Positions 32,136 through 59,642 of a DNA stretch of 64,000 bases are shown one piece after another; within the stretch, counting starts at the first letter, position 1, and each line of letters starts with the position of its first letter. A model generated the notes under the pieces. That model was not told the origin of the DNA, ran no database searches, and worked only from the letters and a program-made list of their open reading frames with translations. The position numbers and the translations under genes were made by a program. The stretch comes from Lachnospiraceae bacterium (GTDB lineage Bacteria > Bacillota > Clostridia > Lachnospirales > Lachnospiraceae): assembly GCA_015056915.1 (NCBI GenBank), contig SVFK01000001.1, forward strand, positions 219,219-283,218, read 5' to 3'.

Positions 32136-32144
32136 CACCTGCTC
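32121..32144 (+). terminator. Hairpin overlapping the rqcH stop codon
   Basis: GAGCAGGTG-AATTGA-CACCTGCTC followed by TATTTG; stem overlaps the last codons. Confidence 0.6.
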
Positions 32145-32159
32145 TATTTGCTACTTATT

Positions 32160-32413
32160 GTCAGAATGTCGGGGATAAAAAGTCCACCGCCCACAATGGT
32201 CAGGCTGGTTTGTCATCTACAGGAGCCTTAGTTGCCCTTAGGATTGGCAAAGATGCGTTGTTGCCCACAATTCGTCTGTTTGAGCGTAGCGAGTTTTCGA
32301 ATTGTGGGTAACGTACTTAGCAGATTTGACAATTCTTAGTGCAACTTGGCTCCGCAGCCGCAAACCGGTCTGACCATTGTGGGCGGTGGACTTTTTGTCC
32401 TCGTTATTCTGAC
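32160..32413 (+). other. Long structured intergenic element, copy A
   Basis: Positions 32160-32212 pair with 32361-32413 (53 positions, one T-T mismatch, five G-U). Conserved core 32208-32365 shared with copy B. Confidence 0.9.
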
Positions 32414-32426
32414 ATTGTCACCAATT

Positions 32427-48682: not shown

Positions 48683-48960
48683 AAAAACGGATAAATCCAT
48701 CCTTAGAGACGAATTTATCCGCGGTTCCACTCTACTTAAAGACCTAGCGGTCTTTCTCTTAATACGTTTAACGCACGCCCACGTATCCGGATACTTGCCA
48801 CACAGATACCTTTCCCCGAATCAGCTCACGGATGCACTTCCTTTCTCCCTGTGCCGAAGCCGCTTTCAGCCTGTTGACAGCTTCTCTCTGATGCCTTCAG
48901 AAAAAGTACTCTTTCCGCTCATTGCCTTTTATCTATCTATTTATCAGAATATGCAAAAAC
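48683..48960 (-). promoter_or_regulatory. T-box leader (Cys specifier) upstream of cysE-cysS
   Basis: Minus strand AGAGTGGAACCGCG T-box (48733-48720), terminator GGATAAAT...ATTTATCCGTTTTTT (48720-48683), specifier-like GAAG-TGC-ATCC at 48836-48834. Confidence 0.92.
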
Positions 48961-59408: not shown

Positions 59409-59642
59409 CGCCGGGGTTAAATTCCACCGCCTCTAGGGCAGGTATTGTTTGTCATCTACAGGAGCCTTAGTTGCTCTTAGGATTGACAAAGCTGCGTTGT
59501 TGCCCAAAATTCGTCTGTTTGAGTGTAGCGAGTTTTCGAATTTTGGGTAACGTACTTAGCAGATTTGACAATTCTTAGTGCAACTTGGCTCCGCAGCCGC
59601 AAACAATACCTGCCCTAGAGGCGGTGGAATTCGCCCCCGGCG
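59409..59642 (+). other. Long structured intergenic element, copy B
   Basis: 59420-59451 pairs perfectly with 59600-59631 (32 bp), plus outer CGCCGGGG/CCCCGGCG. Core 59447-59604 nearly identical to 32208-32365. Confidence 0.9.

Follow-up and report, generated by a model that had tools for sequence, protein, structure and literature searches.

Fold-back hairpin elements with drifting but self-matched arms in Lachnospiraceae, probably miniature transposable elements

The imperfect hairpins of integron attC sites are conserved in structure over sequence and carry strand-asymmetric extrahelical bases; such sites have R-box core sites and belong to cassette arrays served by an integrase. REPINs and REP sequences are not known to duplicate their target on insertion; a REPIN consists of two short REP sequences with GTAG-type heads and lies next to RAYT transposase genes. 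Bacterial MITEs and fold-back elements are small, multi-copy sequences, some 100-400 bp long in MITEs, with no large ORF, bounded by terminal inverted repeats and target duplications. REPINs, which are tied to RAYT transposases, are mobile hairpins with conserved REP ends and a variable stretch that keeps its pairing, and compensatory changes have been reported on both sides of their hairpins (PMC3116915). Paired changes in which one arm templates the other are also known from RNA genes, where template switching has been described as a way of keeping hairpins paired (PMC8794818), and from quasipalindrome correction at reporter sites (PMC7202029).

The elements analyzed here are represented by two copies, A and B, in a 64,000-nt stretch of a Lachnospiraceae genome (hereafter the window, meaning the whole of that stretch). 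Like MITEs and fold-back elements, the family is short, multi-copy, and noncoding, with no large ORF; it has terminal inverted repeats shared between copies, and target duplications are seen in another genus of Lachnospiraceae (G520/G206), in a sister species (G016), and at one locus of the window's own genome. Unlike MITEs, its interior consists of a conserved structured core and a tip found across the phylum, and between the ends and the core lies an arm that is hypervariable yet self-matched. With REPINs it has in common a mobile hairpin in which conserved parts accompany a variable stretch that keeps its pairing; however, REPINs are much shorter than the present elements (about 230-290 bp), which conserve tip and core and, in relatives, are flanked by 8-bp target duplications instead of inserting without them. 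The likeness to attC sites is a general one (an imperfect hairpin, a structure that is kept, and a strand-asymmetric bulge), but the tip is constant here and variable in attC, and insertion here is accompanied by an 8-bp duplication. In contrast to the template-switch and quasipalindrome cases, this is a mobile family with many parallel copies in one genome. We consider it probable that the copies are miniature, non-autonomous fold-back transposable elements, whose arms are kept matched by templated copying.

Both copies lie where the original prediction placed them, and the 15-16-nt arms on which it had focused form the inner portion of a copy-specific helix that extends further outward and encloses the ~157-nt core (Table 1). 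In copy A, the inverted repeat (32159-32212 with 32361-32414) is 89% complementary over 54 nt, and the stem comprises about 50 bp plus the core. For a 271-nt region containing this copy, the folding z-scores are -17.6 (RNA) and -15.2 (DNA), with 0 shuffles as good, and the RNA fold of copy B was likewise equaled by no shuffle. The arms had been described as fully complementary; this holds for the 15 nt of copy B, whereas for copy A it is strictly true as RNA only, its 16-nt arms forming 14 Watson-Crick pairs and two G-T/T-G pairs. No ORF of at least 80 aa is present within 32136-32426, and a search for the tip motif allowing up to three mismatches gave two matches in the window versus 0.03 expected. 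An intrinsic terminator is a short GC-rich stem with a T run after it at the end of a gene. Copy A does sit between convergent genes, with A- and T-rich runs outside its GC-rich stem, but this stem is long and copies of the family occur in all gene contexts; copy A may still act as a terminator in a secondary way. The duplication ATTGTCA at its borders is weak because its flanks contain a second, chance 7-mer repeat, and no clear target duplication was found in the flanks of copy B. This is a point against transposition at these two sites, and the mobility of copies A and B is therefore argued from homology. An ordinary T-box leader is also present in the window (48702-48931, minus strand, 126 bits, Rfam RF00230).

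Table 1. Features of the two hairpin copies, in window coordinates
Feature	Position	Strand	Basis
Copy A, whole hairpin element (54-nt arms + core)	32159..32414	+	inverted repeat, fold
Copy A, left inner arm: CCACCGCC + copy-specific CACAATGGTCAGGCTG	32184..32207	+	homologous to other copies' arms
Copy A, conserved core, ~157 nt	32208..32365	+	13 copies genome-wide
Copy A, tip TGTTTGAGCGTAGCGAGTT, GNA mini-hairpin motif	32277..32295	+	motif search; family-wide
Copy A, right inner arm: CGGTCTGACCATTGTG + GGCGGTGG	32366..32389	+	pairs with 32184-32207
Copy A, putative left target duplication ATTGTCA, weak	32157..32163	+	flank comparison
Copy A, putative right target duplication ATTGTCA, weak	32414..32420	+	flank comparison
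Copy B, whole hairpin element	about 59409..59642	+	extent of pairing, fold z -14.9
Copy B, left inner arm: CCACCGCC + TCTAGGGCAGGTATT	59424..59446	+	sequence read
Copy B, conserved core, 96% identical to that of copy A	59447..59604	+	core comparison
Copy B, tip TGTTTGAGTGTAGCGAGTT, one mismatch to family tip	59516..59534	+	motif search
Copy B, right inner arm: AATACCTGCCCTAGA + GGCGGTGG	59605..59627	+	perfect pairing with 59424-59446

The window's genome, a 2.2-Mb draft placed in the GTDB genus Acetatifactor, contains 13 full copies of the core by sequence search, three of which lie in reverse orientation. Each copy is enclosed by a long copy-specific helix, and the same core occurs in a genus relative recorded as Candidatus Acetatifactor stercoripullorum. 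Contrary to the expectation that the arms share no obvious sequence between copies, the 13-copy alignment reveals a common outline, roughly GATGCCGGGG.CAAAAGG..CCRCCGCC.ACAA.GGTCAGTATT, with an outer part resembling GATGCCGGGG.CAAAAGG and an inner part resembling CCRCCGCC.ACAA.GGTCAGTATT. The arms are thus homologous, being ~65% identical between different copies (93% for the cores), yet the left arm and the reverse-complemented right arm of the same copy are 94-96% identical. The central claim of the original prediction, that pairing persists while arm sequence diverges, is borne out by these values. The CCACCGCC/GGCGGTGG pair, in contrast, does not form the fixed boundary that was proposed: only some of the 13 copies carry it, and, since the arms are homologous across copies, it represents a better-conserved stretch of arm in those copies. 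The arms in this genome are too diverged for clean end calls.

Degraded members are also present in this genome. An internally deleted copy (L015 1500-1582, contig C4) has its core cut to about 30 nt between arms of some 40 nt that are still almost perfectly complementary; it sits upstream of an apparent rRNA methyltransferase ORF, near the end of which, about 1 kb downstream, lies a second core/arm fragment. On another contig (C7, L014 1270-1560), a tandem array of GCAGGCGGGGATT..CCACCCGACTTATC-like units abuts a core fragment. By crude gene calls, copies in the window's genome lean opposite to their neighbors' strand, unlike young copies between tandem genes in G520 (L239-L268), which mostly share it.

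Mobility is seen in relatives, sampled at one genome per species, mostly as drafts. The G520/G206 elements have the same layout (terminal repeat, drifting paired arm, and conserved core) with ends GTTACAGTTCA..TGAACTGTAAC, and G520 alone has over 40 copies. Target duplications of 8 bp matching at 7 or more of the 8 positions flank 30 of 44 copies in these two genomes, a level reached by 12 of 5000 pairs (0.24%) in a swapped-flank control. Arms and core travel as a unit, one G520 subfamily having the same arm throughout. In G016, the arms are alike between copies and the ends are GATGYYRGGGTCAAAAGG; here the duplications flanking the GATG..CATC ends are TTATAAAA (L033) and ATAAGAAT (L039). One copy of the window's genome (L009) has the target duplication ATGTTAT. 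Terminal repeats are shared between copies in G520/G206 and G016 and have diverged in the window's genome. Within the genus, further miniature elements whose interiors differ also carry the GATG..CATC ends. A 198-bp miniature element abundant in G006 and G128 (L150-L163; ends ATGATGYCRGGGTCAAAAG, several internal hairpins, flanking repeats ATNNNAT) shares its ends with the hairpin elements of G016, its interior being unrelated. In distant members from G089 (L057 and L052), the arms outside the core reach about 100 nt, well beyond the usual length, and are almost perfectly palindromic.

Young copies record how the arms change. Across 17 copies of a young G520 subfamily, 39 arm changes are two-sided and 27 one-sided, against 0.8 two-sided changes expected if the arm sides were independent, and 17 of the 39 are transversions; when each distinct change is counted once, there are 22 two-sided and 23 one-sided changes, because some were inherited by several copies. 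One locus (L179/L180) is the same insertion in two species, and hence no transposition intervened; its hairpin shows three two-sided changes, two of which are transversions, few one-sided changes, and a one-base insertion matched on both sides. Core pairs of the window's genome display nine two-sided changes at about 7% divergence. At another of its loci (L013), the 3' half of the core matches the 5' half in reverse complement across some 44 nt, and pairing extends about 11 nt past the terminal repeat into the flank. One observation tells against templated copying: one-sided changes are nearly all transitions (24:3 versus 22:17 for two-sided changes; Fisher p = 0.006), a bias that selection purging bad mismatches could also produce.

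The same changes bear on the explanation, one of several offered in the original prediction, that the element is a structured RNA with a basal stem required to pair but free in sequence, with compensatory selection acting on the transcript. The core is compatible with this: aligned across three species, it retains 45 pairs, two-sided changes being recorded at 20 of them, along with near-invariant T-T mismatches; it also has a one-sided bulge at a set place and shows a wobble excess (139 versus 54 A-C mismatches), albeit in copies that are not independent. The arms, on the other hand, lack a significant excess (77 wobble pairs versus 58 A-C mismatches over all sampled arms, p = 0.12, with related copies pooled), and wobble makes up just 2.5% of the pairs in the arms. 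The matched insertion and the two-sided transversions, having arisen within a short divergence, also argue against an RNA stem as the main cause, as do the occurrence of copies in all gene orientations and contexts, with no consistent orientation relative to genes overall, and the lack of any Rfam 15 match above the gathering score at the element (lax searches returned only sub-threshold matches to unrelated long-hairpin families). We therefore regard RNA-level selection as rather unlikely; the two-sided changes combined with the insignificant wobble excess favor copying between the arms at the DNA level.

A further, less likely reading is that pairing is selected in DNA because a recombinase or transposase reads one folded single strand, as with attC sites and IS200/REP hairpins. 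The evidence in its favor includes the tip, TGTYTGAGC-GNA-GCGAGTT, which is common to all members and free at the N position. Within it lies GCGNAGC, which as DNA forms a mini-hairpin of exceptional stability whatever the N, with a Tm of 78 C for GCGAAGC (PMC4686876). Exact searches found the tip in 36 of the 397 Lachnospiraceae genomes sampled and in 14 of the 399 from Bacillota, both samples including the window's own, whereas the reversed pattern was almost absent. At almost every site sampled, the tip closes a long hairpin, the stems being unrelated in sequence. Below the tip, at a distance of 8-30 nt (mostly 14-22 nt), a 3'-side bulge is present in 31 of 41 sampled loci, as opposed to a 5'-side bulge in 4, and so marks one strand; the insignificance of any RNA-type wobble bias in the arms is also in line with a folded DNA. 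G761, which belongs to a different family within the phylum, has 36 exact matches to the tip, several within 70 bases of contig ends, a hint that assemblies break at these hairpins and that their number is underestimated. Against recognition of a folded strand stand the 8-bp target duplications of the relatives. To our knowledge, such duplications characterize DDE transposases, which cut double-stranded ends, and are not a mark of the known single-strand transposases. Neither the neighboring genes nor the G206 repeat search yielded a partner enzyme, and we view single-strand recognition as the origin of the pairing as improbable, more so than the RNA alternative.

The remaining explanations fare far worse. 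It is very unlikely that the core was inserted into pre-existing terminator palindromes, with the arms as old terminators: the setting of copy A would suit such an origin, but the arms are homologous between copies, they move with the core and lie inside the target duplications in relatives, all gene orientations are represented, and no empty CCACCGCC..GGCGGTGG hairpin, i.e., arms without a core, exists in the window's genome. Thus, of the earlier proposal of a hairpin-targeting mobile element, the involvement of a hairpin mobile element stands, and insertion into ready-made hairpins is not supported; nor do the arms look like drifting flanks of ordinary terminators. Just as implausible is an exchangeable address or guide swapped between copies, a notion prompted by the hypervariable segment flanked by constant parts in several genomes, since the arms drift by scattered paired substitutions along recognizable subfamilies with no block replacement, and an arm-bearing query retrieved only elements and their fragments from the window's genome.

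The search for a partner transposase covered near-exact ends and one transposase family, and within that scope no transposase with matching ends was found, which counts against transposition in trans. IS66, considered for its 8-bp duplications and GTAA-like ends, was rejected, as IS66 genes lacked matching ends. The repeat search in G206 gave no kilobase-scale pair of ends. In G006, an inverted pair of ends lies 1.9 kb apart; the ORFs inside are presumably argC-like and acetyltransferase-like, with apparently no transposase among them. No protein recurs as a neighbor near the sampled family loci. Neither the tip sequence nor similar elements were found in the literature searched, and intrastrand-triplex repeats (PMC4666352), also considered, showed no link to the element.

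Miniature fold-back transposition with templated arm copying, the reading preferred here, may be pictured as follows. The element is one long imperfect palindrome, running from a terminal inverted repeat through a freely drifting arm and the structured core to the GNA tip, and then through the same parts in reverse. A transposase supplied in trans would presumably act on the terminal repeats, duplicating about 7-8 bp of target. Whenever the palindrome becomes single-stranded or extruded at replication or repair, one arm could template the synthesis or mismatch correction of the other, and, as the mutation patterns suggest, a change in one arm would soon be copied into its partner. The use of one arm as repair template for the other is most likely what keeps them matched. 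The arm would then drift because only the terminal repeats and the core are constrained in sequence, and it would remain complementary because its partner templates it; an arm drifting between constrained parts needs no special purpose. The conserved T-T mismatches of the core sit less easily with this mechanism, and their survival means that copying cannot be unlimited there. Together with the 3'-side bulge and the asymmetric tip, they may be kept by selection, possibly for recognition of one folded strand; the core might instead be read as RNA, or be left over from the element's own transposition.

The perfect pairing of long stems despite sequence change is a long-standing problem in the evolution of RNA and genomes. 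This family supplies natural replicates by the dozen, evolving in parallel within one genome and in many cases with target duplications still intact, and the rate and direction of arm-to-arm copying are thus measurable. It also cautions against taking two-sided changes ("covariation"), on their own, as proof of RNA structure. The tip and core that members have in common suggest an unrecognized, widely spread hairpin module in gut bacteria. More speculatively, and in our estimation doubtfully, the elements might belong to a Bacillota-wide class of hairpin mobile element without prior description, handled as folded single-stranded DNA and with arms rebuilt by self-priming. If so, the GNA tip and the one-sided bulge would mark the strand, the outer arm would be rebuilt from its partner at each movement or replication while tip and core are retained, and the core would be a module common to elements with different terminal repeats.
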